Positions 10,026-39,616 of a stretch of DNA of 64,000 bases are shown in pieces. The notes beneath the pieces are model-generated. The model did not search any database. It was not told the DNA's origin and saw only the letters and a program-made list of their open reading frames with translations. Numbering within the stretch: the first letter of the stretch is position 1; each line of letters begins with the position of its first letter. The DNA lies in NCBI GenBank assembly GCA_964036195.1, contig OZ038455.1, positions 8,139,855 to 8,203,854 of the forward strand, in the 5' to 3' direction. A program made the translations under genes and the position numbers. This DNA comes from Sphaerolaimus hirsutus (lineage: Eukaryota > Nematoda > Chromadorea > Monhysterida > Sphaerolaimidae).

Positions 10026-10911
10026 TATAATTTAACGGACCCCCGGGTACTACAACCTTATCCTTATAGGCCAAATAGCAACACCTTGGACAATGTCCAC
10101 TTCCGTCAGAACTTTCAACGATGCGCTCATGCAGCTCATCCTGCCTAATTACGCCAAATGTACAGCACCTAACAGGGGACTTAGTTACCTTTTGCACGTG
10201 TGGAACGACAAACGATGGCAACATGCCAACATAATGATCGCACAATTCCGACAATTCAACAAGCGACATAATGTCCACTGGACGATCAACAATTGCCCTA
10301 CAAGCCCTACGCTTGGCGCGTGCGCGGGAATTCTGTCTGCCAAACTTCACCAGCTTGGTGCCTTTCGACCTAGCTACTCCGAAGGACGTAGGCTTCTGAG
10401 CTTTTCGGTCTACTTGGTTGCCACAGCTAACAAAGTCCGGTCGCGCAAATTGCAAAAGCTTGCGGCGAATGACGTGCGGCTGTAATTTCCCTCTCTTACC
10501 CACCAAATACCAAAGGTTTCTAGGCTGCACAACTTTCTTCAGCCTTTCAGCGGTCTTCTCAAAAACACCACAAATTCCGGGCTCAATAAAAGCTGGCTCC
10601 ATGATCAAGTGATCAAACAACCACTGCTGAGAAGCATCACAAATCACTTCACCATTGAGCAAAACAGAATCAATAACGAAATCACCGGCGCCCTGAACCT
10701 TTTCCGCATACGTGGCCCTTCGCTGAATTTGAAACACTTCCGACACGGGTTCAAAACTATCAAAAACAGGGCCCACTTCCAAATTATCAACCTCCCAGAA
10801 ACCTTCAGAACTTGGCGCATTCTCAGAAACAGAAACAAGACTCGCCCACGCTTCGAAAACCGACAATTGAACATCACTCGAATGCAAGCAGATAAAAGCA
10901 ACTTCCATCAT
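10026..10911 (-). pseudogene. 3'-LTR copy of the polyprotein N-terminus (295 codons)
   Basis: The same ATG and frame as the start of gag-pol, duplicated because the ORF begins in the LTR. The open frame runs on into flanking element D to 9895, so any product would carry an unrelated tail. The segment is basic in its middle (KFGRQNSRARAKRRACR) and Cys/His-rich near its end, with CC, HCPRCC and CDH groups that might bind zinc. I recognise no family. Confidence 0.6.
10367..10410 (-). other. Dispersed hairpin 1 (3' LTR, overlapping the LTR reading frame)
   Basis: Plus strand: GAAG, loop GACGTAGG, CTTC. AGCT/AGCT and GACC/GGTC flank it as outer arms. The CTTTT bulge is kept. Translated as QKPTSFG, in a different frame from the copies in the internal part. 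Confidence 0.75.
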
Positions 10912-12421
10912 GTTTCACAAATTAGAATAGAATTAATTAGATCCACTAGCTGGAATGAGCCGATAGATTAAGTAGAGAATTAGTTGCACCGGAGTAAACT
11001 TGAATTACACTAATTGGGTTTCTCGAATAACGTTGCAATTTAAAGTTTCCAAAGTGTTTAGATATTTCCAATTTACCTTTCCACTTTCCAAATCAGAGCA
11101 TTAACATAAAAATGACTAAATAACACTCAGGGTCATATAAGCTAAACCAGACAGGTGAGGATAGCAATACGGTACACTGGTAAGAGACCACACAAGACCA
11201 GGTACTTAAGTCCTAGCTTGGCACAGCACCACTATCAAAAGTAATCTACGACGACGTAGCACAACTGTTTGGGCCCTTACGAAAGCCTAGAGCGAGTCAA
11301 TAGGTGTACAGCCTACTTCAGCTTTTACTACGCCTAAAACAAGTCCACAGAGGTCCAGACGTACAGTAAGCATCACAGATGGTGGGTTCTCCCCATACAA
11401 CACCCTATCTTAGCTATACCGGCAGCTCCGTGTGGCCACTCCTGCCCCTGTGAACCTAAATGTCACCGTGCAGAGGGAAGAGAAGGCCTATGCCAGAGTT
11501 AGCAGAGAATGAATAACCAAGGGTAGGCTCATTTCAGCTGGTAAATCATTGACTTAGTAATTAGAAATTGAATTGGATAGACTGATGATAATCACTGGAT
11601 TGGGGCTCTCTTTTATGGGTTTGAAGTGCCCAAAACTGGTTTGCAGCTGGGCGGAGCCAACCAATCACGAAAGTGCATTCGAAAGTGTACCGAACATAAG
11701 TGACTTCAGCTGAACCAAGCCATGTACCACAAGGGTTACTTTTTTAATGGAACAAGGGGATGGTGACTTGACATTCAGGAACACCTTTCTTCTGGCACTC
11801 AGCCAGCTAATGAAACCAAACTTGGAACTGTGCCAAACTAGAAAGTACAATACCTACAGTAACCTACCGAATGTAACGCACAAACTAACAGCTTACAAGT
11901 GCCTAAACTGAGCGAGACTCTCCAAAACTAAACGTGATACCATTAGAAACATGCCAAGTAAATCCACAGCTACTCGAGAACGGCAAACAACTGCAAAAGG
12001 ACCAAAAACACAAAACAACCGTGTTTGCTCAAACGTGAGCTCGTCCAGGCCAGCGTACCAATCGACTAACGCGAAGTAAACACAAAGTGCAAAAGTGCAA
12101 ACACAGAAATACGTGCGAAACACAGAAATAAGTACGAACATAAAATTACAATCACAAACACATGCAATTATCACAAACTAAGGGGGTTAGGTGGGTAAAT
12201 AAGTGCACATAAATACAAATACATACACAATAAATCACATACCGCGGCACCTACCGCGCACCTACTCCCTAAACCTACTCCTACACCCTACAAAAATCAC
12301 AAAACTCCTCCCTGTGGCAGCAGTGGCTACGGGATATGTGCCAAACTACACACAAAAACTGCCCCCTTTTGGCATTCTTCCAACCTCCTTTACTAAATTT
12401 TAACCTAAGGCACATATCCCT

Positions 12422-12491
12422 CCAGAAGGGTTGACCCGTCTCTACTCCGAAGGACGTAGGCTTCTGGAGCTATCGGGGCCCTCCCTTCCGG
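12422..12491 (-). other. Dispersed hairpin 2 (3' LTR)
   Basis: CTCCGAAG pairs with CTTC-T-GGAG (one bulged T) around loop GACGTAGG. Outer arms CCAGAAGGG and CCCTTCCGG pair 8 of 9. The ACTTT bulge is absent here. Confidence 0.75.
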
Positions 12492-13035
12492 TGGCCACTC
12501 CCACCAAGAACTCTGAGCGGCCGAAGTCTGTCGCTCCGCGGACGTTCCCGGCGGCCACGCTGTCGACGCTCGCTGGGACTGGGTAGGGGGTGACTTTACA
12601 AGTTTTGGGTGATAAACTGTCGCCAAACTACGGCGGCAGCGCTTACCCCCCTTCGAAATACGTCTGGTGCCATTTTCGGGAAGTTGGCACTCGGCCAAAG
12701 GTGGCCGATTCAACGCTCTACAAAAATGCCCAAAACCACCCAAAATCCCCCTCTCCCGGGCTCCGGCGGTCGGCGGTCGTTGAATGGCGGCGGCGCGGCG
12801 CTGTCGCGGCCGTCGAAGTCGTTTGCCGGCGCTCGTTCGGTCGCCACACCCGAGGAACACAGTTTTCGCTCGGCGCTGCTTTTCTTTTTAGTAAAAGCGC
12901 CGTAAGTTTCACAAAATTTAGGTTTCATTCCCGGGGATGTCGAATGACGTCACCCGGCCTTTTCACGACTAGAAGCGGCTAATTAAGCCGTTTTGCCAAT
13001 TAAGACCGGCGGCATAGCGCCATCGATTTACCGTT

Positions 13036-13112
13036 CTATGGTAATTCGCGCTTAATCACCGTCCCAGAGGCGTAGGTCTGGCACTTTGGTGATCTGGCGC
13101 CAATTACCATAG
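13036..13112 (-). other. Dispersed hairpin 3 (3' LTR)
   Basis: CCAGA, loop GGCGTAGG, TCTGG. Outer pairing is long: CTATGGTAATT with AATTACCATAG (11 of 11), GCGC with GCGC, and ATCACC with GGTGAT. Confidence 0.85.
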
Positions 13113-13260
13113 TTGGCGTCCGTTGCGCCGTAAGTTTCCTATAAGTTAGGTTCACATATGGCAACGTCGTAATGACGTCACTTGGCCCAAAAAGGGTCAA
13201 TATGGCGTCCCCGGCGACTAAAGCGCCATACTTAGGGTTTAGTAAGCGTTAATTGACGCT

Positions 13261-13303
13261 GGGTCACCGTCCCAGAGACGTAGGTCTGGCACTTTGGTGG
13301 CCC
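13261..13303 (-). other. Dispersed hairpin 4 (3' LTR)
   Basis: CCAGA, loop GACGTAGG, TCTGG. Outer arms GGGTCACC and GGTGGCCC pair 7 of 8. Confidence 0.8.
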
Positions 13304-13324
13304 GCCGCCAGTTCTCGCATTACA

Positions 13325-13372
13325 TACTATACCGACCTTTTGAGCGCTGGCCCAGCGCGAACAGGCATTACA
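13325..13372 (-). other. 48-bp extra U3 segment between polypurine tract and 3' LTR edge
   Basis: Transcript sense begins TGTAATGCC at 13372 and ends just before TGTAATGCG at 13324. It includes a GCGCTGGGCCAGCGC palindrome (hairpin). It is absent from the outer end of the 5' LTR. Confidence 0.75.
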
Positions 13373-13390: not shown

Positions 13391-14018
13391 AAAAGCGCAG
13401 GTTAGTCAGCGTAACAGCAGCGAAGAGGGTGTTATATACCATTTTCAAGGAACTGTCGAGGCTGATGTTGATATTTTCATGTATTTAAAGCGTTGCGGTG
13501 TATTGCAGGTAAGTGTTTAAAGTACATTACAATTGCTGCGAGATCGCAGTGGAGCCCTGGAAATTATGCAAACATGTGCACTGGGAGCACCCTAATAAAG
13601 CATCCTAACAAAATCTGGAATTATGGCAAGAAAAATTTTAAGGCCAGAATCATGAGAACCGTAAGTGAGACCGTAAGACAAGTGGAATGCCACTAAAAAT
13701 ATAAACTAAACGTGACTAAATTGAAACCACTACAAAGGCTAGAATTATTCACAACAATACAAAATACAACAATTCACAAAAGGGATCCCGGTAGAAAACA
13801 TTCAGCTAACAATTCTCAGCCTATTCGACAGCACAAAACAAGGGCATCTTAATCTTGGTGGCACAAGCGCAACTACTAATCAAATTCGCGGCTAACTTCA
13901 CAAAGCACATGGCTCAGGCGGTCTACCTCCACATAATTATCAAAAATCACCGCGTGCAACTAAGTGACTGCGCTTACTAAGAGAAAATTTCAGAAAAGCG
14001 ATATCAAAACATACACAA

Positions 14019-14075
14019 TGGGTGCTTTGGTCAGTCCCAGGGACGTAGGCTTGGCACTTTAGACCGCTGCACCCA
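14019..14075 (-). other. Dispersed hairpin 5
   Basis: CCAGG, loop GACGTAGG, CTTGG (one G-T pair). Outer arms TGGGTGC/GCACCCA and GGTC/GACC. Confidence 0.85.
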
Positions 14076-14240
14076 ATTTACACTAGAAGCTAAATTAATA
14101 CGCGTCGTGGTTCACCTGTACCATAGTAAGAAAATGATAGCGAATACAGAAATAGCTTTTAACAAATATTGTGCTGGAATTACTACGGTTGGCCTAAAGC
14201 AGAAAAATAATACTCAGCGCAGCATTGTAGCCATCGGCAT

Positions 14241-14946: not shown

Positions 14947-15355
14947 TGTGTGGCTGCAAAAATTTGTTCCCAGCCATAATCAGCAAAAATTATTGGTGAT
15001 TACTTTAAATGTGGGAAGCAAAAAGTCTTTATCCAGGTGGCTGTTTAAAAGAAAGTGTTCAAGGTCACTGGAGTTTTAAAGGAAAAACTGTGTGCACAAA
15101 ATTCCATGAGTCCAGTCCCAAATAATTACACAATGACCGGGGGACCGTCCTGACATTTCTAAATACACATGTAAAGCCAGGGGTCCTCCTCAATGTGACC
15201 ACGCGGTTTTGTTAAATACAGGTAAAATACAAAAGCGGCGTAGAAAGCTAAGAATAATTATTTACAGCGGTGCTCAGTATGGTCGGGTAGAAATATTTAA
15301 AACAGCTCAGAATTACGCGGCGTGAAGAAACACAAATATTACCTTGCCTCTGGGT

Positions 15356-16645: not shown

Positions 16646-16685
16646 ACACAATAAAGCTGTCAGTAAGGGTATACTATTCGGGCGA

Positions 16686-17103: not shown

Positions 17104-17165
17104 TGGGTCTATTTGCGCCGGGACAATCCCAAGGACGTAGGCTTGGCACTTTAGTCCCGACACCC
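17104..17165 (-). other. Dispersed hairpin 16
   Basis: CCAAG, loop GACGTAGG, CTTGG. Outer arms CGGGAC/GTCCCG and GGGT/ACCC. It lies just downstream of the NADAR ORF stop. Confidence 0.83.
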
Positions 17166-17197: not shown

Positions 17198-20100
17198 CTA
17201 CTTGGTGCGAGCCTGGCGCAGGCGGTGCATCCTGCGAGCGGCCTTGTTGGCACCTCGCGGCAGATTATGCTCGCGTTCGATTACTGCAAGCTGTGGAATG
17301 GGACGCTGGCCCAGTTCCACCTGTGCTCCACTCGCAATGGTTGGATCTTGGCCCTGGACAAATGACACGGTCATGATAGTTGGCGGGATTTCGCCGGGGT
17401 CATACCGTCGAACCGCCCTGCACCGTGCAATCCTATCCACGAGTACAGTGGGCAGCGGTTGGAGCGGTCGCGGTCGCTGGACGGCGCCTCTGCATTTCGC
17501 CAGAATGGACATCGCCAACTCGTTTAGACTCAGAACAGGCCATGGGCGCTGTACGGGTTCGCGCGCTAACTGCTCCGCCATAGTCATATGCAACCGGCCC
17601 AGCCAGTTGTCACCCCACGTCTCTACGCTCGTCCAGAGAGTCCGATCGCTCATGCCTTGCTCAATGCCCCAGAATGGGTCAAACGGGCTCGCCTCGATAA
17701 AGATCGAGTCGGGGTTGTTAGCGAGGGCGTTCCGGTAGGCAGGGCAGGTCGCCAATTTGAGTCTCAAAACAGCGTGCATGGCTGCAACGGCAAGACCGCA
17801 GTTGTGCCACTCCCGCTGTTTCAGTTTCCAGCCGGCGATTCTACCCTCCCTACGCCAAGACGTCATCTGAGACTTGCAGCGCTTAGGCTCCGAGTGTCTC
17901 AGCAGGGGCACAATTAAATCATGATCCCCGCTAAAGATCAACTGCAGCACATGATACAAGTGCTCAGATGACGGCACGTACAGATCACCCATTAGTGGGA
18001 TAGGGGCACTAAAGAAGTTTCCCAACGGACTATCTCCGGAGAAGAATAGATACGCGTGGTAGTCGCCGATCGATATCGTACCCACGCCTGCGTGCACGTC
18101 CGGTCGTCCCAGGCCGGGGCTCCCATCCAGTGCCAGCAGCCGCAGAATATACAACCGAAAGTCGAGCCACCGGCCTAAAGATGTATGCAGCACGGGTTGC
18201 AAGACAAGGTCGGAGGGTCTCTTAACAGTCGCACACACGATCTTTGCACGCAACAAAAAGGCCGTAAACTCGTCCTGAGTCTCTTCAAGCATCGCCCGCA
18301 ACTGATTCAGATCAGCTTGCTGAGGTCGATTCTGCCATCTGGCCCAGGTTCGTGGCGCCTCAGGGAAGCGCGCACGATATGCCGCCCACTGTTCGTTTGA
18401 AAGCACCAACACGCGCAGGAGTTCCCGCTGATTGCGCCAGAACGACAGCCAGTTCAAAATGCACCTGGTCAGTGTTGTGTTCACGCCACCGCTAAAATAG
18501 CGGTGTCCTATGGGCAGAACAGGCCGTACCTCCTCCAAGTCGGAGAAAACGTTGGGCGGCACAGGGACTTCCAAGGTCAAAGGCGGTTTGTCGCTGGAGT
18601 TATCAAGGAAGAAGCGCAAGGTGCGTCCCGCGTTAGAGGTATACCGAGATTCGTCCAAGCTGAGGCTCATCAGCATCTCAACATAAAGAGGGCGGAGTGG
18701 GAGGGGCACGCTTTCAATGTGTAGCCTCTCCCAACCGGGCGCGTACGTTGGCTCCGGCTGGAGCCATTCGCTCATGGGCCTCCTCAACGGGTGTCGCGGG
18801 GACCAGTCAGGGTCATAGTGTCCTCTGACCCTCGCGACGGCCACTAAGCGCGCGCGCTCAGCCGGCCCAAACGCATTTGCCAGCCAGTAATTCAACTCGG
18901 CCTCCCCTGGCACCGCAGGTGGGAGCCCTGCATTCCGCACCAACTGCAGTTGTTTAGTCTCCAAGTTGAAGAACGGCCGAACGTCTTCCCCTTGCATCGT
19001 TGCCGCATAATATCGGCGAAAGATACTAAACAACTGCGTGATGTGTCCTGGGAGCAGATCATCCCAATGCTGCGCCATGGGCAGCCAGGCCTCCCGGCGC
19101 CACACGTCAATCATGCGACTCTCAATAGGGACCTCACAGTAGAAGTAAGGGGTGCTGTTCATAATCCCCAGAACCAGCCCCGTTTCGAGCCTAATGTACG
19201 GGACATTTTGCTCGCGGAAAAACTGCCGACCCTGTTCGTGCGTGTGAAAGCTATTCACGGCCGGGTTAACCGGGGCCACTTGGACCTCACCGTCTGGCTG
19301 GATGAGTGCAGCCGGCGGTACGTAGGCGTCGCGGACTGGAATCGGTCCGAAACCGTCAAAGGGGTCGTCTCCTAGTTCCGGCACCAAATACGCTGCCGGT
19401 TCTAAGGGTTCAACCAGGCCAAATGATGACCACACCGCTGTCTTAGAAAAACCCAGCGCGTCCAGTCTTTCCTTGTCCCCTGAGTCGTCGTGACCAAGCA
19501 ATGTCCCCGCCACGGCGCGAATTCTATCGTCAATTGTGCATTCAAACACTTCCTTGGCGAGCTGGTTGCACACCGGCTGGAGAGGTACGATGCGGAGTCT
19601 ATAGGTGCCCTCGGCCCGGTTCGCTGCCTCCACTTCTTGGGACCAGTTATCCGGAACGTGGTCAGCCGAGACACCCGCATCGGACTGCTCCTCGCCGGCC
19701 GCGACCTCCATTGGGACTACAATTTCCAGCTGTCCCACTACACTAGGGGCGGCTGAGGACATCCCTTCATCTGCCGACTCGTCAGGGTTCAAAATGCGCC
19801 GGCGGGGGTCATCGGGAGCTGGCAAGGCACGAGGCTCTACCAGGCCGACATCCCACGTGCGCACGCCAGAAGCTAGCTGGGTGAAGGGGCGCTTGTGCGG
19901 GTCGAAAAAGAAATTGACCAGGCGGTTAGGCGCCGACCTATATTGCGCACCCTGGAATCCCGCGACGTCCTCCACGGGGAGTCCGTCGTCAAAACACCCG
20001 TGGAACTTGTACTTCTTGGTCAGCCAAATGTGGACGGGGTTGCCTTCAGGGGTCCCACTCGTGCGGACTTCCTCGATTGGGTCTGCAGAGGGGTCCTGAC

Positions 20101-24010: not shown

Positions 24011-24952
24011 AATAACGCGCCCTCCGAAGCACGATAAGTTTTCTACCGGGATCAAAAGGGTTTCAACAAAAGGTTACGACATTAAAATTCACGCGAAAAC
24101 AGGGAATGTACAGAAGAATTAAATTTCAAACGAGAAGAAAACACATAACAATCTAATCACACCCCAACTCCCGGGGGACACACAGCCAGTGGTCCCAATT
24201 TAACCGGAGCACGGCGAAAACGAGCCGCGCGTCGATGGCAGACGTGCACACGTTGCACGATCGAGAAACACTGCGGTGTTCAAAAGGTGATGGTTCACAC
24301 TGTTCCCACTACCGGCTACATCGCAACTGAATTATTACACAACGGAAAGTAAATAAGTCACCTTAACAACAGAAACTGGAGGCAGCGAACTAGAAGGTGC
24401 TCAGCGAGCCACTGCCGACACAATCTGTGATCAAATGGTTAACATCAGTACACCTCGCAACATGACAGGTCTTCACAAGGGTAACTGTGTCTACTCACCA
24501 AAAGGCAAGAGAGACGGCGACTAGCACGCCCAAATGGCCACGAATTACAGTAAAGCGGGGGAAGCTGGTGACGGGCGAGATCGCCCTCCAAGAAATAGAA
24601 TTTACGGGCCGGGTGCGGGGGCGGGAAAGTTTAGTACCCAAGTCTGTGTTGAAAGGGGTTTTTATCAAAATTTGTATGCAATAAAAAGGTACAAAAGTAG
24701 CCGGAAGGCAGCGCTTATCTCACTAAGTGCAGCGGGCCAAAGCGAACTACCGCGCTTGGGGAGGTTACAACTTTAATACAAAAATTGGGTGTCAGGTTGT
24801 CTAACGAGTCCGCGGTGGAGACCTATGGGGCGCGGTCTAAGGCGAACAGGGTGATAAGCATAGTGGGGCTCAATCAGGACGGAGATAATCTTTTCTCCGT
24901 AATGTGGGTGGATATCTTTTACCCAAAATATCAGAGCCAAAACACAGCGGCG

Positions 24953-29000: not shown

Positions 29001-32000
29001 ATCGCAGCGCGCCATTTTTCTTACGCACCGGGACAATCGGGGATGCCCAAGGAGACACTGACGGCTCAATTATCCCTAATTTCAGCCACAGCTGCACTTG
29101 TCGTTCAACTTCCTTACGTAACCCGATAGCTAATCTACGGACTTTCTGTTGGATCGGGGGGGAGTTTCCAGTTTCGATAGGGTGGTAAATTATATCGCCT
29201 GTGTCTCCCATATCAAAATCGGACAGTGAAAAGATGTGGTGGCGTTCTAATAGCCAGTCACGCAACACCTGTTGCTTTTCCAAGGGGAGGTGACTAAGTA
29301 CTCCTTCGTCTAGAATTTTCCCAAGTTGATGCAATCGAGTCTCAGGGGGTGACTGGGCGGTAATTACAGGGTCCTCAGGGGGTTCTACATGCGTGGAAGC
29401 CAAGTTGGCTTCACAGAGAGCCTTACACAGAGGTGTCTGCACTGTTTGCCACCACACATCGGCAAATTCAACTGCGAGTTCGTTCATATGGAAGTCATTG
29501 GTCGGTTCAACCACTACCTCTTCGGCCCAGCCAAGAGACTGGCAGGCAAATAAGACCATCTCCTTATCCGAATGGTTTGCAAAGGGGACAAAGAGCTCAT
29601 TCCCGTTCTCTAATGGTAGCAAGGTGTTTTCGAAATGTTCGGAGAAGTGTGCATGTGGGCTGAAAAGAACCGTGGTGAGTATCTCCTGGGGGTCACCTGT
29701 CAACTCAGCGGGCACATAAGACACAGAGCGCGGTGGGCATACCCAGTTTTCCGTTGCAACAACCCCAACCGCACCGGTGCCCTTACTTGGCGAAAAATAG
29801 GGAACCGGTGACGAAGAGCAAAGCCTATTTACATCTGTTTTCGGGGCCAAATACGGCTCTAAAAGTGATCCTACAGTGTAAATATTGCTAGATTGAACTC
29901 GTTCAATTGCTTCTGGGATATTTTCACCTGATTTTGCAATGGCGCCTGTACGTAACCCGGTGTCTACGTAGGGGATTTCCCCTTCATAGAGCAAGCAAGG
30001 TTCATCGCCCGGGATGAGATACCGTTTATTGCTGTGCATAACCGGTCGAGTCATACAAGCGCCAGGACAAATAGGTAGGAACCAAAATTTAGCATAATCG
30101 CCAATACCTATAATGCACTGAGTGCCTTCAAAGGAAATTGCGAAGTTTATGCGTCGTGTTTCCGTACCGATCGAGACTGTCAATTGGATCGAGTACAGTA
30201 ACGTATGTTTATGTCCTGTATAGCCTTTACAAACAAGGGGTTTTTCCAATTGAAAGATTCGACGGTCTAAACATTTCCCTGAAAGGCTCTCAATTTGCTC
30301 TAATAAAGACACGGGAATGGCACTTAATTCTGCGCCAGTATCAGCTAATACTAAATAGGGTCCTACACCTTGGATTACGGCGCGGTGGTAAATACTAGGT
30401 GTAATTAAATCGCGCACAGTGTGCTTTGGACGCGTCATTTTGCCACTTTGCAAGCGGGCACCCAATGGTTCGGTTACTACCACTTGTGCGGCATTACATT
30501 GGTATTCCATGCGCTTAACGCCTAAATCCGGGGAGAGTTGTTCCCAATAGTATTTCCTACGGTCACGACAGGTTTCTCGGCCAGCATCAGAAGTGCTGAG
30601 ATCTAGAGCAGCAACTACAGACGTGTGTGTGGCAGGGTTGATAGGGCGGAACATATTAATAGAGGGTGTCCAGGTAGATGTTTGTGTTGGTGCTTGCACA
30701 GTTTTTGGACTACCCAACACTACATGCTCCAGGTCATCAGTGCCCGCGATATCACGAATCCCAGGGGCGTAGGCTTGGGACTTTTGCGTGGTTACCGCGA
30801 GGGCTGAGGTCTGGTCAGGTTCGCAAGATTGAATGCGAATTTCCGGAATACTTAGGTGTGGAATCGAATCGCAAACATGATCGACCTGGGGAACACCAGT
30901 CAAGGTTTTACAGAAGCTTACAGTGGGTCTCCTACCAGTCACTGAGTCACTGAGCGCGCGTGCCGTCCCAGGGACGTAGGCCTGGCACTTTGGCGCGGCG
31001 CCCTTTGGCTCAGTGGTAGACGTGTCCACCCACTGCGTAACGCAAACGTCAAAATAACTTATTGGGGTTGAGTCAGAATGGTTATAAAGTTCTGGACAGG
31101 AACCCAGAAAGTTTACACGCACGTCGTTCTCCTCTTCGGCTAATGCGTCTGTCTCTGGTGGTACCATATCCGAGTAATCATATTGGTACTGATGCATGGT
31201 TTCCGAAGGGTATTCGTTATAATAACCTTGCAAGTCGTTAGGGTCTGCTACCCCATCAACTAAATCATCTTGCAAATCAGTGTAACCAATTTGATCGTCG
31301 GGTATGATATCATACTGTGCGTACAGTTCATTGACATTCTGCGCAGGCGTGTTTTCGGGACACTCACGCGAGAAATGGCCAGGCTTATTGCACTTAAAAC
31401 ACTTAAGTGGCTCACGCGGCGTTTGGGCTGGTGCAGGGCCAGATGAAGTAGGGCCGGTTGCACGACGACCACACTCTTCAGTGGTATGGCCGGACATTTT
31501 ACATTTGTCGCAAAAATAGCTCTTATAAGCATTGGGAGGCTGTCGACCGGGCTTGTCAATAGCTACCACAGGTGGCCCTACATCAACTGTTGGACGCGGA
31601 GCAAAGCGCGGGCCTTGTACGGCAGGAGGTAGACGCATAGGCGGAATATCCCGTTGCGGTCTAAACGGCATGCGCTGTGCATTGAACGGGGGTTGAGCAC
31701 TAGGCTGCGCTTGTGGCGGAGGGAAAGCAAATCGCGGGTTTTGGCGCATATCCATCGGTGGTCGAAACATTGGCCGTTGGCCAGCTAGCATACCGCCACC
31801 CAACTGCTGACGGTTATCGCCCATGCGTGCACTAGACATTTGCTGCCGCAGTTGCGAGAGTTCATCGCGCATGCGCTTAAACTCAGTATCCTTAGCTGAG
31901 CGGTCTTGCTCAAGCTTACGGTTTTCCAAGGACTGTTGAGCGACTTTGGCATGCTGGATCAGCTTGTCGAAAGACTCAAGTGCAGCAGAGTTTAACTCCA

Positions 32001-35000
32001 CTAATTGACGCAACTCAGAGTTATGCTGGCCCAAAGCGTGCAAAAATCCTTCAATCATACGCAATTCGCGCTCGCTATGATTCACATTTTTCAACTGCGC
32101 CGATTCGGTCATCAAACGGCGTCGCACAGTATCAATCGTATCATTGGGTTTCCAGTTCATAAGTGTGATCGCTCGGCATGTAGCTAGCACATGTTTTGCC
32201 TGGCCAAAGTGAGCTTTAAGAGCTGACTCCAGTTTCGTAAAAGAGGTCTGGACTTCCTGCGGTTGACCATAACACAGCGTAGCTGCATCATGTTCCAACA
32301 CAGCGGCCAGAGTCAAAGCCCTTTCTTCGTCAGAGGCGATTTTGCAGATTCTACATTTCGCCGTAAACTGTGCTAGCCACTGGCCGACATCAACAGACGC
32401 TTTACCCGAGAACATGGGACAACCAAGCATCTTAAGCTTCTTAATACGCTTAGCCAAATCCTCATCTGAACTAGTTGTGGTACTAGGCGGATCATTTGAT
32501 ACATTTGGTTGCGAAACTTGGGGCTGAGCTCGTGATTGAGCACGCCTTTGGTCTAATAGGGCTCGCATGTTAGCGTTCATAGCCTCCATCTGGTCACGCA
32601 TATTAGCATATTTTTGGTCCATTTCTGACTTAAGTTGGTCTAGAGCCGAAGTGGGTGCTACAGAAGAGCTAGGGTGTGCTGGTGGAACCGAGAGCCTACC
32701 GGTGTGCTGGTGTCCCGTATGATATAATCGCTGGGGCGCCTGCACAGCGGCGGGCACAGGGGCTCCACCAGCCGAATCAGGCTGCTGATAACCCTGGTGT
32801 GACAACAGAAAGTCGTATTGGTTGTCCCGCGTTCCTACATCATCCGGCTGAATCATATCTACGTTAGCATCATAGCTGCCACTATTCGTTACCCGGACCA
32901 TCTGTGAGTGAGCGTTTTGAGCGGTAGGCAACTGTAAGCGACGGCGAGAATGCTCGAAGCGATTATTTCGGTCAATTGGAAGCATCGGAGTAGTGTGCAC
33001 AGGCACCGCCCCGTATCGTCGTGCCAACTTATTGTAGTTAGCCCCAACTTGTGTGTAATCGCGACGGGCATCACTAGCCAACTTATACAAAAAGCGGCCA
33101 TTAATATGGTACTGTTCGGGTAGCGGATAGGTGTCTGTTATGCCTACCGTTTCACCATGCTTAATAGAGCGATCAAGCGTGTCAACAAGCTTTTGCACAA
33201 GGAAGGCGCAGCGCTGAAATGCAGTGAGTAAGCTATCTGGGAACCAGCCATAACGAAACACGAGTTGAAAAATGTATTCAGACTCAAAATACGCGGCGAT
33301 CAACAACTTAGAATACGCGCGCACGAGATCGGTGTTCCGTGGATCAATGATGGCCCAGGGTGTGTCCATAATACCGACTGTAGGCAGAATACGACCGACC
33401 CAAGTGGTTTTGACATCCAGCTCAGCCACTGGGCCAACAGAGAACTCCGGCCCTACAGGTTCTACCCAAGCGTGCATGGATAAGTCAGTCAGTACAATGC
33501 GCGGCGGGTCAGTTTGCACTTTGATAGAAGGGTCAGGCGGCCACTGATGTGTCGCCAAGCGCCGCATAGGATCGGGGCTCATTAGATGGGCTACTAAGAC
33601 ATTATTCCAGGCGGGGGGTAAAGTTGAAATGCTACGGTTCAACGGGGTAGTATACATTGATGGTTGGTGCGCACTCTGGTGTGGCTCGAGTACTCTCGAA
33701 GGTTGTGGTTTGGGTGTCGGAACAGGGGTTTTTCCACGCAACTGGTGTAGCCAGTCTAATCCAAAACCAATATTGTTCAGCAGATTCTGACACACCAACC
33801 GACATTTCTGGGGGGTACACCTGTCTGAGACCCGACCGATATGCATTACACAGAGGGCATTGTACTGCGCAAAATCCAAATTCTCTAAGCGGCACAAGAG
33901 GTCCCGGGCAGAGTCCAGGGTATTACCAAGATGTGCCAGTAATTCTTTCCTTGTCTTACGAGCAACAGGGCCATTAACTTGGCGCTTAATCTCAGGTAAT
34001 ATATCCGCAAACGCATGGTTGAGGCGAATGCCTTCAGCTATGCACCCATGAAATTGTGCCATAGCGTACCGAGCTGTTTCTGGCAAGGTGCCAAGCAATG
34101 GCATGTACGTGCTAAATCCGGTTCGGTGCACATCGAGGTAAACCCAGGCTTCTGTCAAACTACGCAGAGCTGCAGCGCGCACTGTTTGGGATACTCCCTT
34201 ATTTTCTAGACCAAAAACACCAGCCGTTGATTTCGACTGAATCTGAGAACGAAGGGTAGTCCAATCCCTTGCTGACTGTGCAGAAACGAGCAAAACGGAT
34301 TGCACAAACGCAAGTGCACACTGAACGGGGTAGGCGCGTGACTGTGGGCGCGCGGGGCCAGGGTCTGACGCTGCCAGTACTTGCTGGTTCGCTTGTCTCT
34401 GAGCCAGCGTGGACACATCCACGGGGGGCTTAGTTAGGGCATTCGCATCAGCACAAAAGTTACTCAGTAGGGACTGTAAATCACCCGCTAGGGAGTCAAC
34501 CCGGGGTTTCAAGTGAACACTTAGAGTACGGTCAATGGAGTCTTGCAGGGATCCACGGAATGGCAACATTGCCTGTGACCACGTTCGGAGGGTCATCAGG
34601 GCCGAGGTAACATTATCCAGAGTGGTTTGCTGGGATGGGTCAGAAGATGTCACAGTGGCAAGGTCAAACAATAGCTGATCTAACTTATTTATCTCGGGAT
34701 CGAGTTCGCTTAGAAGTTTTTCAAAGGGTTGTAACACATCCCCAATGCACTGATCTGAGGGTTTCAGGTGATCCCATAGTTTAGTAGGTTCACATGCCTG
34801 TTGCAAGGGGGAAATCATAGTGTCGATCTCTGATTGGTTATTCGTCAGTAATTCTCGATGTTGTCTTACCGGCCCAGTGGAAGGTTGGGGTTGGGGGCTA
34901 TTAGTAGGGTTGGATGGTGGTGGTTTCACGGGGGTACTTAGGTCACAGACAGAGGTGGGGGGTCTACTAGGGGATTGAATACTCAGGCACGGAGAACTAG

Positions 35001-37224
35001 TAGCGTGAGGGAACTCTTCGTGGGGTCGTCTTAACACTGTATCCCGAGACTCGTTGACATATGACATCCCTGGCTCGGCAGTATATGCTGGGGTGGCTAG
35101 GTCAGACATCCGGCCCCGAGAACCCACAGAATCACCAACATCACTACACGTAACACCGTGGCGGCTAGTACTGGCCCATTGACCGACAGGGCGCGCGCGT
35201 TCCCTACCGTCTAGCTCAAAGAAGCTTTGCTGGTTAGAATTGCCGCGGCGGCGAGTAACCACACCTAAGGATGAATTATACTGCAACATATTAATATCCG
35301 CGGCGTGAACCATGTAATTATCATTGGCATCTGGCGTCGTGTGTGCTCCACTCAGTGCAGCAGGGTCAGCCATATAATCGTCAATAATTTCGAAAGAATT
35401 GAGCGAGTCCTCAATAAACACTGTTTGAAACGATTGGGCCGCAGACAAGGTAGTGGAGCACACATGTTCCAAAGCTACATCCGTGTCACAAGTAGAGTCA
35501 TCTAGAGTACTAGGCTGGCTAGCTGCCAAGTCCACACTGTGCTCAAATTGACCGTGACCCACAATCCCAGAGGCGTCGGTCTGGCATTTTAGTGAGTCAC
35601 TGTCAATTGAAGCATGCGATGACAAGCTCCATTCAGTTGAAAACTCAAGATCATCAGAAGACCCTGATGCACCACCATCAGCTGGCAAATACGAATACTG
35701 GCCAGCTGCCAATTCCACATCATGCTCGAATTGACATTGGTCCACAATCCCAGAGACGTAGGTCTGGCATTTTAGTGAATCACTATCAATTGAAGCACAT
35801 GATGACGAGCTTAGTACAGTTGATTGCTCAGAATCGTCAAAGGACCATGGTGCACCATCGTCAACTGACAAATATAAGTATTCATAATCAAACGAGTCAT
35901 AAGAGTAGTCAGTGGTCACGTATTTTTCACATGATTGACATAGCTCTGGCTCAACATCAAAAGTTTCGAGAGTTTTGAATTGACAATTGACTGACGCGGG
36001 ACATGAAAGGTTTTTTTGAAATTTCAAAATTCGTATCAAAAATCGCCGCCAGGGCATGGTGTACCGTAGTTTCTCAAATTTGGAAATTTGACTCTGTTGC
36101 ATCATGGGTGGGGCAGTGTGCCAAGAAATCAAACGGTAATAAGCGCGTGATACACATTTCAAACGCTCGAAACGCTTACGCAAAAGCCAACATTTGTGGT
36201 TCCAGTATGTGCACGGTAGCATAGGGCTAAGCTGAAACACTACGCCCTGTACGCGTGGAGGGTGGCTATGTGTGCGGTGTGAAGGGGGGGTAAAAGGGGA
36301 ATGCAACACGGTGCCGTGACCCGAGGTGGGACCTCCAATATAATTTAACGGACCCCCGGGTACTACAACCTTATCCTTATAGGCCAAATAGCAACACCTT
36401 GGACAATGTCCACTTCCGTCAGAACTTTCAACGATGCGCTCATGCAGCTCATCCTGCCTAATTACGCCAAATGTACAGCACCTAACAGGGGACTTAGTTA
36501 CCTTTTGCACGTGTGGAACGACAAACGATGGCAACATGCCAACATAATGATCGCACAATTCCGACAATTCAACAAGCGACATAATGTCCACTGGACGATC
36601 AACAATTGCCCTACAAGCCCTACGCTTGGCGCGTGCGCGGGAATTCTGTCTGCCAAACTTCACCAGCTTGGTGCCTTTCGACCTAGCTACTCCGAAGGAC
36701 GTAGGCTTCTGAGCTTTTCGGTCTACTTGGTTGCCACAGCTAACAAAGTCCGGTCGCGCAAATTGCAAAAGCTTGCGGCGAATGACGTGCGGCTGTAATT
36801 TCCCTCTCTTACCCACCAAATACCAAAGGTTTCTAGGCTGCACAACTTTCTTCAGCCTTTCAGCGGTCTTCTCAAAAACACCACAAATTCCGGGCTCAAT
36901 AAAAGCTGGCTCCATGATCAAGTGATCAAACAACCACTGCTGAGAAGCATCACAAATCACTTCACCATTGAGCAAAACAGAATCAATAACGAAATCACCG
37001 GCGCCCTGAACCTTTTCCGCATACGTGGCCCTTCGCTGAATTTGAAACACTTCCGACACGGGTTCAAAACTATCAAAAACAGGGCCCACTTCCAAATTAT
37101 CAACCTCCCAGAAACCTTCAGAACTTGGCGCATTCTCAGAAACAGAAACAAGACTCGCCCACGCTTCGAAAACCGACAATTGAACATCACTCGAATGCAA
37201 GCAGATAAAAGCAACTTCCATCAT
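26023..37224 (-). CDS. Gag-Pol polyprotein, 3733 aa, starting inside the 5' LTR
   Basis: Single uninterrupted ORF with ATG at 37224 (AAAC before it; a second ATG follows at once) and TAA at 26023. Residues 1-295 lie in the LTR, then the frame runs through the primer-binding site. Residues 296-1580 match nothing I know and include acidic and Ser-rich stretches. Then: gag capsid-like about 1590-1760; two CX2CX4HX4C zinc knuckles at 1905-1918 and 1942-1955; aspartic protease DTG at 2295-2297; reverse transcriptase about 2690-2900 with D2782 (LDLASGY) and YLDD at 2844-2847; RNase H D2992, E3034, D3059, D3102; integrase zinc site H3330, H3334, C3364, C3367; integrase core D3397, D3455, E3491 with 35 residues between the last two; GPY module at 3632-3634. 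No chromodomain and no frameshift between gag and pol are seen. Four dispersed hairpins are translated in the internal part. Confidence 0.96.
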   Translation of the reverse strand: MMEVAFICLHSSDVQLSVFEAWASLVSVSENAPSSEGFWEVDNLEVGPVFDSFEPVSEVFQIQRRATYAEKVQGAGDFVIDSVLLNGEVICDASQQWLFDHLIMEPAFIEPGICGVFEKTAERLKKVVQPRNLWYLVGKRGKLQPHVIRRKLLQFARPDFVSCGNQVDRKAQKPTSFGVARSKGTKLVKFGRQNSRARAKRRACRAIVDRPVDIMSLVELSELCDHYVGMLPSFVVPHVQKVTKSPVRCCTFGVIRQDELHERIVESSDGSGHCPRCCYLAYKDKVVVPGGPLNYIGGPTSGHGTVLHSPFTPPSHRTHSHPPRVQGVVFQLSPMLPCTYWNHKCWLLRKRFERLKCVSRAYYRLISWHTAPPMMQQSQISKFEKLRYTMPWRRFLIRILKFQKNLSCPASVNCQFKTLETFDVEPELCQSCEKYVTTDYSYDSFDYEYLYLSVDDGAPWSFDDSEQSTVLSSSSCASIDSDSLKCQTYVSGIVDQCQFEHDVELAAGQYSYLPADGGASGSSDDLEFSTEWSLSSHASIDSDSLKCQTDASGIVGHGQFEHSVDLAASQPSTLDDSTCDTDVALEHVCSTTLSAAQSFQTVFIEDSLNSFEIIDDYMADPAALSGAHTTPDANDNYMVHAADINMLQYNSSLGVVTRRRGNSNQQSFFELDGRERARPVGQWASTSRHGVTCSDVGDSVGSRGRMSDLATPAYTAEPGMSYVNESRDTVLRRPHEEFPHATSSPCLSIQSPSRPPTSVCDLSTPVKPPPSNPTNSPQPQPSTGPVRQHRELLTNNQSEIDTMISPLQQACEPTKLWDHLKPSDQCIGDVLQPFEKLLSELDPEINKLDQLLFDLATVTSSDPSQQTTLDNVTSALMTLRTWSQAMLPFRGSLQDSIDRTLSVHLKPRVDSLAGDLQSLLSNFCADANALTKPPVDVSTLAQRQANQQVLAASDPGPARPQSRAYPVQCALAFVQSVLLVSAQSARDWTTLRSQIQSKSTAGVFGLENKGVSQTVRAAALRSLTEAWVYLDVHRTGFSTYMPLLGTLPETARYAMAQFHGCIAEGIRLNHAFADILPEIKRQVNGPVARKTRKELLAHLGNTLDSARDLLCRLENLDFAQYNALCVMHIGRVSDRCTPQKCRLVCQNLLNNIGFGLDWLHQLRGKTPVPTPKPQPSRVLEPHQSAHQPSMYTTPLNRSISTLPPAWNNVLVAHLMSPDPMRRLATHQWPPDPSIKVQTDPPRIVLTDLSMHAWVEPVGPEFSVGPVAELDVKTTWVGRILPTVGIMDTPWAIIDPRNTDLVRAYSKLLIAAYFESEYIFQLVFRYGWFPDSLLTAFQRCAFLVQKLVDTLDRSIKHGETVGITDTYPLPEQYHINGRFLYKLASDARRDYTQVGANYNKLARRYGAVPVHTTPMLPIDRNNRFEHSRRRLQLPTAQNAHSQMVRVTNSGSYDANVDMIQPDDVGTRDNQYDFLLSHQGYQQPDSAGGAPVPAAVQAPQRLYHTGHQHTGRLSVPPAHPSSSVAPTSALDQLKSEMDQKYANMRDQMEAMNANMRALLDQRRAQSRAQPQVSQPNVSNDPPSTTTSSDEDLAKRIKKLKMLGCPMFSGKASVDVGQWLAQFTAKCRICKIASDEERALTLAAVLEHDAATLCYGQPQEVQTSFTKLESALKAHFGQAKHVLATCRAITLMNWKPNDTIDTVRRRLMTESAQLKNVNHSERELRMIEGFLHALGQHNSELRQLVELNSAALESFDKLIQHAKVAQQSLENRKLEQDRSAKDTEFKRMRDELSQLRQQMSSARMGDNRQQLGGGMLAGQRPMFRPPMDMRQNPRFAFPPPQAQPSAQPPFNAQRMPFRPQRDIPPMRLPPAVQGPRFAPRPTVDVGPPVVAIDKPGRQPPNAYKSYFCDKCKMSGHTTEECGRRATGPTSSGPAPAQTPREPLKCFKCNKPGHFSRECPENTPAQNVNELYAQYDIIPDDQIGYTDLQDDLVDGVADPNDLQGYYNEYPSETMHQYQYDYSDMVPPETDALAEEENDVRVNFLGSCPELYNHSDSTPISYFDVCVTQWVDTSTTEPKGAAPKCQAYVPGTARALSDSVTGRRPTVSFCKTLTGVPQVDHVCDSIPHLSIPEIRIQSCEPDQTSALAVTTQKSQAYAPGIRDIAGTDDLEHVVLGSPKTVQAPTQTSTWTPSINMFRPINPATHTSVVAALDLSTSDAGRETCRDRRKYYWEQLSPDLGVKRMEYQCNAAQVVVTEPLGARLQSGKMTRPKHTVRDLITPSIYHRAVIQGVGPYLVLADTGAELSAIPVSLLEQIESLSGKCLDRRIFQLEKPLVCKGYTGHKHTLLYSIQLTVSIGTETRRINFAISFEGTQCIIGIGDYAKFWFLPICPGACMTRPVMHSNKRYLIPGDEPCLLYEGEIPYVDTGLRTGAIAKSGENIPEAIERVQSSNIYTVGSLLEPYLAPKTDVNRLCSSSPVPYFSPSKGTGAVGVVATENWVCPPRSVSYVPAELTGDPQEILTTVLFSPHAHFSEHFENTLLPLENGNELFVPFANHSDKEMVLFACQSLGWAEEVVVEPTNDFHMNELAVEFADVWWQTVQTPLCKALCEANLASTHVEPPEDPVITAQSPPETRLHQLGKILDEGVLSHLPLEKQQVLRDWLLERHHIFSLSDFDMGDTGDIIYHPIETGNSPPIQQKVRRLAIGLRKEVERQVQLWLKLGIIEPSVSPWASPIVPVRKKNGALRLCVDYRRVNLVTKRDCFALPNCADLIDMAGLVHPQYFSSLDLASGYLQMRIDPRDIPKTAFTSHVGLFQYKFMPFGLVNAPASFSRLIANVLAGLDPDRVHFYLDDVLVCAETEERMYSLLDDVFARFDRYTLKVGIKKCEFFKERVNFLGCVLTREGIEMQQSKITTIQNYPVPVTTKEIRRFLGMCSFYRRWVEGFSFITRPLHLKIQGAKTTWDDECQAAFEELKKRLVEGPILAYPKEGRPFILHTDASRSGLGAVLSQMDDAGRHRVVAYGSCALKGAEKRYNTTELECLAIVWSLKYWKHYLTQQEVIIVTDHRTLTWALENRSENPRLDKWYVFLMAYQPKIIFKRGSENSVADALSRIAESVNFHKWTEDHLQGKFDPEEVPAGICPLSTFTDKWQAHPSNQPEPDLSEYSAVEITKISDEIHYEWHPPLGVGHIQSLDNIPHPANQDRTPKANTPSIFEAKSTPIERFNMTGKDVDVIRDAGLTIDGIVGSTLESVAEETQKFWQRIIKGQEDDPDTQSIKLFLTTRQYTKHARFNTWLDRNYTGFCVAHDVLWFMGNASRRACLVVPIEITSELCERFHSWGHPAGLKLSMWLRIYFWWFTLTMDAHRAVDKCLECATRTGQGRKRLNPLTPISVVAEPFFRIHMDVLKMPMSQNGYQYVLVLQDAFTKYPCAYALRLKDAETVAYHFMQFVSDHGVPRVLVTDNGSEFCNAILHGLTQFWGTDHRKTTVYRPQANALVERFNRTLLDMLAKMCTLRPTDWDEWLAPALYWYRAIPHASTGESPHFLATGRDMPLPGDTSFLETSQLVYNEHPKYHERIVQYTREAWKIAKELIDLAQAQQKVQYDKKCKPLTFEVGQRVWYLAEGVVTGPAYKLARPYIGPYRILELKGKTAKIKRIDQCDAAAIRVNLDKLLPVKDSVASGAIWTGRALRKVREVPLESELPTHDVSGEKADAGVTPGDKPLSDDGMVLRSGNRVRANSK
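30745..30799 (-). other. Dispersed hairpin 18 (inside gag-pol ORF)
   Basis: CCAGG, loop GGCGTAGG, CTTGG. Arms CACG/CGTG and CGCG/CGCG. Translated as QKSQAYAPGIRD. Confidence 0.78.
30948..31015 (-). other. Dispersed hairpin 19 (inside gag-pol ORF)
   Basis: CCAGG, loop GACGTAGG, CCTGG: the only copy where the G-T pair is replaced by G-C. Outer arms CACTGAG/CTCAGTG are perfect, with a GCGCG/CGCGG inner part. Translated as PKCQAYVPGTARA. Confidence 0.85.
35544..35610 (-). other. Dispersed hairpin 20 (inside gag-pol ORF)
   Basis: CCAGA, loop variant GGCGTCGG, TCTGG. Outer arms pair 15 of 17 (AATTGAC-GTGAC-CAC facing GTG-GTCAC-GTCAATT). Translated as LKCQTDASGIVG. Confidence 0.83.
35724..35796 (-). 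other. Dispersed hairpin 21 (inside gag-pol ORF)
   Basis: CCAGA, loop GACGTAGG, TCTGG. Outer arms pair about 15 of 22. Translated as LKCQTYVSGIVD. It is the tandem partner of hairpin 20, about 183 bases apart. Confidence 0.75.
36310..36337 (-). promoter_or_regulatory. Candidate primer-binding site
   Basis: One base inside the 5' LTR the transcript reads TGGAGGTCCCACC and onward. Starting with TGG, the complement of tRNA CCA, is the normal layout. TGGA implies a U discriminator base, seen in some tRNA-Thr, but I cannot match a particular tRNA. The site lies within the gag-pol open frame. Confidence 0.6.
36680..36723 (-). other. Dispersed hairpin 1, 5' LTR copy (inside gag-pol ORF)
   Basis: Identical to 10367-10410. 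It is translated as part of the LTR-encoded N-terminus. Confidence 0.75.
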
Positions 37225-37892
37225 GTTTCACAAATTAGAATAGAATTAATTAGATCCACTAGCTGGAATGAGCCGATAGATTAAGTAGAGAATTAGTTGC
37301 ACCGGAGTAAACTTGAATTACACTAATTGGGTTTCTCGAATAACGTTGCAATTTAAAGTTTCCAAAGTGTTTAGATATTTCCAATTTACCTTTCCACTTT
37401 CCAAATCAGAGCATTAACATAAAAATGACTAAATAACACTCAGGGTCATATAAGCTAAACCAGACAGGTGAGGATAGCAATACGGTACACTGGTAAGAGA
37501 CCACACAAGACCAGGTACTTAAGTCCTAGCTTGGCACAGCACCACTATCAAAAGTAATCTACGACGACGTAGCACAACTGTTTGGGCCCTTACGAAAGCC
37601 TAGAGCGAGTCAATAGGTGTACAGCCTACTTCAGCTTTTACTACGCCTAAAACAAGTCCACAGAGGTCCAGACGTACAGTAAGCATCACAGATGGTGGGT
37701 TCTCCCCATACAACACCCTATCTTAGCTATACCGGCAGCTCCGTGTGGCCACTCCTGCCCCTGTGAACCTAAATGTCACCGTGCAGAGGGAAGAGAAGGC
37801 CTATGCCAGAGTTAGCAGAGAATGAATAACCAAGGGTAGGCTCATTTCAGCTGGTAAATCATTGACTTAGTAATTAGAAATTGAATTGGATA

Positions 37893-37929
37893 GACTGATG
37901 ATAATCACTGGATTGGGGCTCTCTTTTAT
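37893..37929 (-). promoter_or_regulatory. Candidate LTR core promoter: TATA-like box and initiator
   Basis: In transcript sense ATAAAAG (37929-37923) lies 33 bases upstream of the A in TCAGTC (37898-37893), which fits the arthropod-type initiator TCAGTY. Predicted start is about 37896, giving a U3 of about 1.74 kb and a 5' UTR of about 672 bases before the polyprotein ATG. The same pair recurs in the 3' LTR around 11583-11616. This is inference from motif and spacing only. Confidence 0.5.
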
Positions 37930-38734
37930 GGGTTTGAAGTGCCCAAAACTGGTTTGCAGCTGGGCGGAGCCAACCAATCACGAAAGTGCATTCGAAAGTG
38001 TACCGAACATAAGTGACTTCAGCTGAACCAAGCCATGTACCACAAGGGTTACTTTTTTAATGGAACAAGGGGATGGTGACTTGACATTCAGGAACACCTT
38101 TCTTCTGGCACTCAGCCAGCTAATGAAACCAAACTTGGAACTGTGCCAAACTAGAAAGTACAATACCTACAGTAACCTACCGAATGTAACGCACAAACTA
38201 ACAGCTTACAAGTGCCTAAACTGAGCGAGACTCTCCAAAACTAAACGTGATACCATTAGAAACATGCCAAGTAAATCCACAGCTACTCGAGAACGGCAAA
38301 CAACTGCAAAAGGACCAAAAACACAAAACAACCGTGTTTGCTCAAACGTGAGCTCGTCCAGGCCAGCGTACCAATCGACTAACGCGAAGTAAACACAAAG
38401 TGCAAAAGTGCAAACACAGAAATACGTGCGAAACACAGAAATAAGTACAAACATAAAATTACAATCACAAACACATGCAATTATCACAAACTAAGGGGGT
38501 TAGGTGGGTAAATAAGTGCACATAAATACAAATACATACACAATAAATCACATACCGCGGCACCTACCGCGCACCTACTCCCTAAACCTACTCCTACACC
38601 CTACAAAAATCACAAAACTCCTCCCTGTGGCAGCAGTGGCTACGGGATATGTGCCAAACTACACACAAAAACTGCCCCCTTTTGGCATTCTTCCAACCTC
38701 CTTTACTAAATTTTAACCTAAGGCACATATCCCT

Positions 38735-38804
38735 CCAGAAGGGTTGACCCGTCTCTACTCCGAAGGACGTAGGCTTCTGGAGCTATCGGGGCCCTCCCTT
38801 CCGG
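38735..38804 (-). other. Dispersed hairpin 2, 5' LTR copy
   Basis: Identical to 12422-12491. It is upstream of the predicted transcription start, so in the genomic RNA it would be present only at the 3' end. Confidence 0.75.
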
Positions 38805-39348
38805 TGGCCACTCCCACCAAGAACTCTGAGCGGCCGAAGTCTGTCGCTCCGCGGACGTTCCCGGCGGCCACGCTGTCGACGCTCGCTGGGACTGGGTAGG
38901 GGGTGACTTTACAAGTTTTGGGTGATAAACTGTCGCCAAACTACGGCGGCAGCGCTTACCCCCCTTCGAAATACGTCTGGTGCCATTTTCGGGAAGTTGG
39001 CACTCGGCCAAAGGTGGCCGATTCAACGCTCTACAAAAATGCCCAAAACCACCCAAAATCCCCCTCTCCCGGGCTCCGGCGGTCGGCGGTCGTTGAATGG
39101 CGGCGGCGCGGCGCTGTCGCGGCCGTCGAAGTCGTTTGCCGGCGCTCGTTCGGTCGCCACACCCGAGGAACACAGTTTTCGCTCGGCGCTGCTTTTCTTT
39201 TTAGTAAAAGCGCCGTAAGTTTCACAAAATTTAGGTTTCATTCCCGGGGATGTCGAATGACGTCACCCGGCCTTTTCACGACTAGAAGCGGCTAATTAAG
39301 CCGTTTTGCCAATTAAGACCGGCGGCATAGCGCCATCGATTTACCGTT

Positions 39349-39425
39349 CTATGGTAATTCGCGCTTAATCACCGTCCCAGAGGCGTAGGTCTGGCACTTT
39401 GGTGATCTGGCGCCAATTACCATAG
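39349..39425 (-). other. Dispersed hairpin 3, 5' LTR copy
   Basis: Identical to 13036-13112, in U3. Confidence 0.85.
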
Positions 39426-39573
39426 TTGGCGTCCGTTGCGCCGTAAGTTTCCTATAAGTTAGGTTCACATATGGCAACGTCGTAATGACGTCACTTGGCC
39501 CAAAAAGGGTCAATATGGCGTCCCCGGCGACTAAAGCGCCATACTTAGGGTTTAGTAAGCGTTAATTGACGCT

Positions 39574-39616
39574 GGGTCACCGTCCCAGAGACGTAGGTCT
39601 GGCACTTTGGTGGCCC
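39574..39616 (-). other. Dispersed hairpin 4, 5' LTR copy
   Basis: Identical to 13261-13303, 21 bases from the outer LTR end. Confidence 0.8.

Follow-up and report, generated by a model that had tools for sequence, protein, structure and literature searches.

The 64-kb window analysed here (contig 7, bases 8139855-8203854, of the 348-Mb, 762-contig genome of the nematode Sphaerolaimus hirsutus) carries a Ty3/gypsy-type long terminal repeat (LTR) retrotransposon of 29,613 bp, in which a family of hairpins with a conserved loop and bulge is dispersed. The two LTRs show 99.97% identity across 3300 bp, a near-identity that indicates recent insertion, and the sequence CAGA on both flanks is read here as a 4-bp target duplication. 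The long open reading frames (ORFs), ORF1 and ORF2, lie on the minus strand, which is therefore taken as the sense RNA. In sense order, the components of the element are as follows.

36339..39638, minus strand: 5' LTR, from LTR comparison; CAGA at both element ends
36325..36337, minus strand: putative primer binding site, from sequence, one base past the 5' LTR
26023..37224, minus strand: ORF1, Gag-Pol, 3733 aa, reading frame starting inside the 5' LTR; Pfam zinc knuckle (zf-CCHC), RVT_1, RT_RNaseH and rve domains
17198..24055, minus strand: ORF2, 2285 aa, with a C-terminal NADAR domain; hairpin-free
10026..13325, minus strand: 3' LTR (sense orientation), 99.97% identity with 36339-39638

Affiliation with Ty3/gypsy elements (Metaviridae) is indicated by the LTRs and target duplication, and by a related reverse transcriptase (RT) in a Pol of the order RT-RNase H-integrase. 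The ORF1 frame crosses the primer binding site from the 5' LTR (36339-37224, minus strand), so that about 295 of its codons are LTR-encoded and occur in both LTRs; this portion contains an arginine-rich stretch. The putative primer binding site may be a complement of tRNA-Gln; no tRNA gene was found in 29 scanned pieces of the genome. The NADAR domain at the C-terminus of ORF2 (Pfam E = 2e-12) belongs to an enzyme family that removes ADP-ribose.

The loop of the hairpin, GACGTAGG, has 19 exact occurrences in the window, all on the plus strand, against 0.67 expected, a number reached in 0 of 100 shuffles. Inclusion of loop variants brings the total to 25 hairpins in one orientation throughout, comprising 21 distinct copies and four duplicates in the second LTR. 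A covariance model was built from the 21 distinct copies and searched with filters off. Across both strands of window positions 1-47000 it returned the 25 copies at E <= 4e-10, the remaining 13 of the 38 listed matches beginning at E = 0.51, and across 46900-64000 its best match scored 9.3 bits (E = 1). The 21 model-building copies match by construction; the informative result is that nothing else credible matches in the window. The census given in a preliminary description of this DNA, namely 25 copies sharing one orientation and one loop or a close variant of it (21 distinct and four LTR duplicates), with none noticed outside the element, is thus borne out within the window, where no further match falls below E = 0.5. 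The hairpins, with covariance-model scores, are listed in sense order.

39569..39621, minus strand: 5' LTR, duplicate of 13256-13308; 58.7 bits
39361..39413, minus strand: 5' LTR, duplicate of 13048-13100; 59.9 bits
38745..38797, minus strand: 5' LTR, duplicate of 12432-12484; 41 bits
36677..36729, minus strand: 5' LTR and ORF1, duplicate of 10364-10416, in a frame differing from that of other ORF1 hairpins; 40.2 bits
35734..35786, minus strand: ORF1; 60.7 bits
35551..35603, minus strand: ORF1, tandem-duplicate partner of 35734; 58.3 bits
30952..31004, minus strand: ORF1; 54.3 bits
30745..30797, minus strand: ORF1; 48 bits
24960..25012, minus strand: ORF1-ORF2 gap; 54 bits, matched 24960-25011
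17113..17165, minus strand: array in the 3' untranslated region (UTR); 65.5 bits
16980..17032, minus strand: 3' UTR array, fold no better than shuffles (100/300 in sense); 56.1 bits
16871..16923, minus strand: 3' UTR array; 61.7 bits
16695..16747, minus strand: 3' UTR array; 58.3 bits
16588..16640, minus strand: 3' UTR array, tandem block; 69.3 bits
16391..16443, minus strand: 3' UTR array, tandem block; 62.6 bits
16104..16156, minus strand: 3' UTR array, tandem block, missing in the three other element copies read; 59.5 bits
15984..16036, minus strand: 3' UTR array, tandem block, missing in the three other copies read; 68.1 bits
15787..15839, minus strand: 3' UTR array, tandem block, missing in element copy L031; 59.2 bits
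15499..15551, minus strand: 3' UTR array, tandem block; 60.6 bits
15358..15410, minus strand: 3' UTR array, with a double change U-A to C-G beside the bulge in element copies L032 and L033; 65 bits
14021..14073, minus strand: 3' UTR, 60/300 shuffles as stable in sense; 68 bits
13256..13308, minus strand: start of 3' LTR; 58.7 bits
13048..13100, minus strand: 3' LTR; 59.9 bits
12432..12484, minus strand: 3' LTR, inner stem divergent; 41 bits
10364..10416, minus strand: 3' LTR, inner stem divergent; 40.2 bits

Hairpins thus occur in the LTR, ORF1, the ORF1-ORF2 gap and the 3' UTR, the last of these holding 12 of the 21 distinct copies; ORF2 (17198-24055) contains none. A scan of 8-mers (sense strand, 9901-39700; 69 octamers with at least six spaced occurrences) ranked the loop octamer first for pairing of its flanks, and the next 22 ranks, assigned by eye, also look like pieces of the hairpin motif. 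Elsewhere in the genome, no credible copy was found in 289,855 other bases (loci L002-L030); the best match there (18.9 bits, E = 0.011, in L003) lies in repetitive sequence and was rejected.

In the sense RNA, each hairpin is composed, in order, of an outer stem, a 3-nt bulge on the 5' side, three base pairs, a position with either a G-G mismatch or a C-G pair, five more base pairs, and the octaloop CCUACGYC, with about 8-9 base pairs of helix separating bulge from loop. Among the 21 distinct copies the bulge is UAA in 14, CAA in three, AAA in two, and UGA and UAG in one each, and the octaloop is CCUACGUC in 16, CCUACGCC in three, and CCGACGCC and CUUACGUC in one each. The preliminary description had taken the other strand as the RNA, and so described the complement of this structure, the coding strand of the element being minus. 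Its one-sided CTTTA bulge exists, reading UAAAG in sense, although only three nucleotides of the UAA type are bulged and the adjoining AG can pair. In the LTR hairpins at 10385 and 12453 the inner stem differs from that of the others, yet its pairing is retained. Two-sided changes are seen at 12 of 12 outer and five of eight inner pairs across the 21 copies, and the folded length is variable, with 15 to 58 pairs crossing the loop in 158-nt folds. An alternative apical fold proposed by RNAalifold includes an intraloop pair, C25-G30, which is invariant in all 21. As shown by computation, it is the sequence that is conserved in bulge and loop, and chiefly the pairing in the stems, a pattern that recurs in other copies of the element.

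Several comparisons place this pairing well beyond chance. Duplexes between an arm and its own partner have a mean energy of -27.4 kcal/mol, versus -15.9 kcal/mol with partners drawn from other copies, and 0 of 20000 permutations reached the own-partner value, in keeping with the earlier statement that the outer arms differ between copies and pair within each. Covariation, judged by shuffle controls in place of R-scape, was similarly distinct, with 77.6% of cells paired versus 59.8% and a score of 0.484 versus 0.200 (0 of 500 shuffles). When four tandem-duplicate partners were dropped, the outer arms of the remaining 17 of 21 copies were 65% paired versus 44%, a level that none of 5000 random reassignments of the 3' arms attained; between-copy identity in these 17 is 0.31 for arms and 0.80 for the core. 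The possibility, raised in the preliminary description, that the arms pair no better than controls is excluded by these permutations and re-dealings. Folding z-scores in sense averaged -3.24 for the 21 hairpins (300 shuffles each), versus -0.18 for 300 control windows from internal regions of the element (60 shuffles each). In a first z scan, of 745 windows that were not hairpin-centred (30 shuffles), eight sense windows fell below -4, four of them over hairpins.

Duplications within the element, and other copies of it in the genome, bear on whether these structures have been selected. In an old duplication, the tandem pair 15470-16075 and 16075-16680, identity is 97.7% in hairpin cores, 88.9% in near arms, 81.7% in far arms and 63.4% between hairpins (Fisher tests versus spacers: 1.5e-12 for cores, 8e-6 for near arms, 5e-5 for far arms). 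A 177-bp tandem duplication that preserves the frame of ORF1 (35515-35691 and 35698-35874), 80% identical and bearing one hairpin per unit, shows 93.1% identity in the core (27/29) versus 75% outside, a comparison of few sites. Three other element copies (L031-L033), drawn from the 21 genomic ORF2 matches and having among them ORF2 identities of 92, 95 and 96%, were compared in the 3.3-kb region past ORF2 that corresponds to the 3' array. Two of them carry 10 array hairpins and one carries 9, against 12 in the window, all sense-oriented; the tandem block holds six in the window, three in L031, and four each in L032 and L033. Compared with the window, identity is 98.1-98.6% in the cores and 87.2-89.6% in the spacers (Fisher 3e-7 to 2e-11).

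The consequences of natural arm substitutions were assessed by placing them on the window hairpins in 29 comparisons, indels being ignored. Summed sense energies were -344.7 for the window, -344.3 with the observed substitutions and -311.2 with random placement for L031, the corresponding values being -381.8, -369.3 and -320.7 for L032, and -381.8, -363.6 and -319.0 for L033. Natural substitutions therefore cost 0.4, 12.5 and 18.2 kcal/mol, versus 33.5, 61.1 and 62.8 kcal/mol at random arm positions, with a mean z in sense of -1.09. From the conserved cores and the low cost of arm substitutions it follows that sequence is what is maintained in the core, and pairing in the arms. Double changes from one Watson-Crick pair to another number three, at 15379, 15520 and 16716, too few alone to exceed chance.

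Some observations temper this interpretation. The hairpins at 17001 and 14042 fold no better in sense than their own shuffles, arm sequence between element copies is hardly more conserved than the spacers (p 0.006 to 0.5), and L032 and L033 share ancestry and hence are not mutually independent. Overall, we assign a probability of roughly 0.9 to the hairpin being a selected RNA structure. The preliminary description had further proposed a recognition element for packaging, export or Gag assembly; covariation, constrained cores and pairing-preserving substitutions uphold a selected RNA element, and the specific role stays an inference.

Because the conserved loop and bulge sit on otherwise free stems, the hairpin is probably a site read by a protein, a view drawn from its architecture. 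Separated by roughly one turn of helix, the bulge and loop could together be recognised by a single RNA-binding protein as a two-part site; the protein would touch both and need only a helix between them; with about 20 sites per RNA, binding would be multivalent. A candidate reader is the zinc knuckle encoded by ORF1. If the element's own Gag were this reader, a step of which we are less sure, the many docking sites might allow it to collect and compact so long an RNA and to package it. Such a role in packaging or assembly is preferred because the sites span the LTR, ORF1, the gap and the 3' UTR, and because the RNA is exceptionally long, although we would place it at slightly less than an even chance. 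The clustering of 12 of 21 sites in the 3' UTR, and their absence from ORF2, run counter to it, as pure packaging signals would be expected to be evenly spread; an array serving export or stability would suit this distribution almost equally. In its fullest form, the proposal is of an undescribed RNA recognition system in which a genomic RNA of up to 29.6 kb carries about 20 separately evolving two-part hairpins by which an element-encoded protein condenses and packages it; this we advance only tentatively.

Dispersed packaging signals have been proposed for genome assembly in some RNA viruses, where they are hard to prove, the motifs being loose; the packaging of giant retrotransposon RNAs is little understood. 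The system proposed here, if real, would be a retrotransposon counterpart of such viral signals, and might explain how LTR elements come to exceed their usual size so greatly. The family may explain the handling of an RNA of almost 30 kb, and it offers a specific RNA-protein pair to seek. With a tight motif, about 20 sites per RNA, and covariation and constraint in several copies, the question becomes testable with short RNAs. The closest analogy is with the packaging signals of MS2 type, described as many stem-loops per genome with a common loop motif and a 5' bulged A on free stems (PMC6281560). The likeness is in architecture, a loop motif combined with a 5' bulge while the stems are otherwise unconstrained, and no membership is claimed; the present hairpins differ in belonging to an LTR retrotransposon, in their far tighter motif, far longer stems and mostly 3'-clustered placement, and in that coat-protein binding is putative.

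A putative nuclear export or localisation array, resembling the constitutive transport element (CTE) or Rev-response element and recruiting an export receptor directly or via an element protein and so bringing the long RNA out of the nucleus, is the strongest of the competing explanations, though an unlikely one in our judgement. It accommodates the clustering of 12 of 21 hairpins downstream of the last ORF and the variation in array number between copies (12, 10, 10 and 9), which would be tolerable for a dosage-type element; multiple CTE copies are described as acting additively (PMC4829213). Sites are, however, also found in the LTRs, ORF1 and the ORF1-ORF2 gap, and the comparison with Rfam, which gave no match, revealed no resemblance to known export elements. 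By description, the CTE and Rev-response element are likewise structured retroviral RNA cis-elements active in more than one copy (PMC4829213), and are set apart from the present family, which has no Rfam match and forms about 20 separate hairpins located also in LTR and coding sequence.

Improbable by comparison is an encounter of a stem-rich RNA with the host machinery for double-stranded RNA, whether as a Dicer or Drosha substrate or as a decoy for Dicer, ADAR or a sensor. The long imperfect stems (15 to 58 pairs) are about the size of small-RNA precursors, but such enzymes read stem geometry, and here it is the loop and bulge that are most conserved while the stems vary in sequence and length.

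Slightly more improbable still is a function confined to DNA, in which the repeats would be binding sites or cruciforms for transcription or integration with no RNA role. This possibility turns on which strand folds, and the evidence is divided. Of the 21 copies, 14 have the better folding z-score in sense (Wilcoxon p = 0.005), the mean pair probability of the inner stem in a context of about 600 nt is 0.80 in sense versus 0.62 in antisense, and GU exceeds AC by 102:40, versus 2245:1324 in mismatched arms (p = 0.016); the coding orientation also favours sense, and a conserved loop with a one-sided bulge would be more natural for RNA. Neutral towards folding of the sense strand or opposed to it, and congenial to a DNA-level site, antisense stability is preserved nearly as well as sense under the arm substitutions of other copies (mean z -0.97 vs -1.09), and changes of Watson-Crick pairs show no strand bias (13 to GU vs 16 to AC). 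In addition, A stands opposite C in the inner stem of eight of 21 copies, where the opposite strand could form a G-U pair. On balance the sense RNA is quite likely the folded strand.

A mobile palindrome resembling a miniature inverted-repeat transposable element (MITE), landing repeatedly within the retrotransposon, would account for one core repeated in unrelated flanks and is very improbable, since the arms pair yet are unrelated between copies (unlike repeated landings of one insert), constraint on the cores is seen both in the old duplication and among other copies of the element, and no credible copy occurs in the rest of the window or the 289,855 other genome bases; an inserted DNA element, considered in the preliminary description, is made unlikely on the same grounds, target duplications at single hairpins not having been searched for. 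Further candidates were rejected. A protein repeat is ruled out by the core being read in two frames within ORF1 and being present in non-coding DNA. Kissing-loop dimerisation is ruled out by the change of ACGU to ACGC in four of 21 distinct copies and by the single occurrence of the loop complement in the sense strand. The twister and hammerhead ribozymes were dropped for want of an Rfam match.

The hairpin family appears to be undescribed. Rfam 15 gave no match at gathering score in window positions 1-47000 and, with E allowed to reach 10, no relevant one in 13900-17250, which agrees with the statement in the preliminary description that no described retrotransposon RNA family of this form was known to its author, and a literature search, to which most subscription journals were closed, found no description of such hairpins. 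In IMG/VR, neither the hairpin DNA pattern nor ORF1 had a match, and alignment of the RT identified one locus (L001, 9984 bases), without hairpins. Giant LTR elements such as Burro and Ogre, and NADAR domains in Gypsy elements, are already known; what appears new is the hairpin family. Burro of planarians and Ogre of plants are likewise Gypsy-like and very large, with long LTRs and extra ORFs, and carry different extra domains; compared by description only, the available part of that account reports tandem repeats and no hairpin family (PMC6431247). Gypsy elements of Ectocarpus share the NADAR domain, placed within Pol, whereas here it is C-terminal in the separate 2285-aa ORF2 (PMC12477816).

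Relatives of the RT numbered 32, and their matches to ORF1 residues 1-2650 were weak and nearly all at zinc knuckles (20 matches). For ORF2, none of 7984 scored candidates reached E <= 0.001 and the PDB gave no match, so that no whole-length homologue was found in protein and PDB comparisons outside the copies in this genome. These include at least 21 full-length matches (21 scored of 83 candidates), counting the window copy, the others having amino-acid identities to it of 99, 96 and 95%, plus seventeen at 92%. The seventeen form a tight group, each with at least one in-frame TGA within the match; the ORF2 query begins at TTG, 15 codons ahead of ATG, and a TGA may precede the true start.

Other features of the window and genome are noted for completeness. 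Within the ORF1-ORF2 gap, 25221-25370 folds strongly into a hairpin whichever strand is considered (z about -5), with a near-perfect palindrome at 25265-25320, outside the CCUACGYC family. Farther along the window lies a satellite array with a 59-bp unit in about 152 register copies (approximately 52464-61672), inverted-oriented copies of which occur at about 47.5-50.5 kb; GACGTTGG has eight occurrences in the satellite region, yet no hairpin of the element's family is found there. Elsewhere in the genome, a BEL/Pao-type element (L010:1-6612) and another frame (L016:3114-4757) contain an envelope-like gene, with a Monjiviricetes fusion glycoprotein domain. For a BEL/Pao element of this genome, the nematode Plectus sambesii has the best named relatives among 120 of 1740 listed; a pseudoscorpion, molluscs, a coral and a sponge have others.

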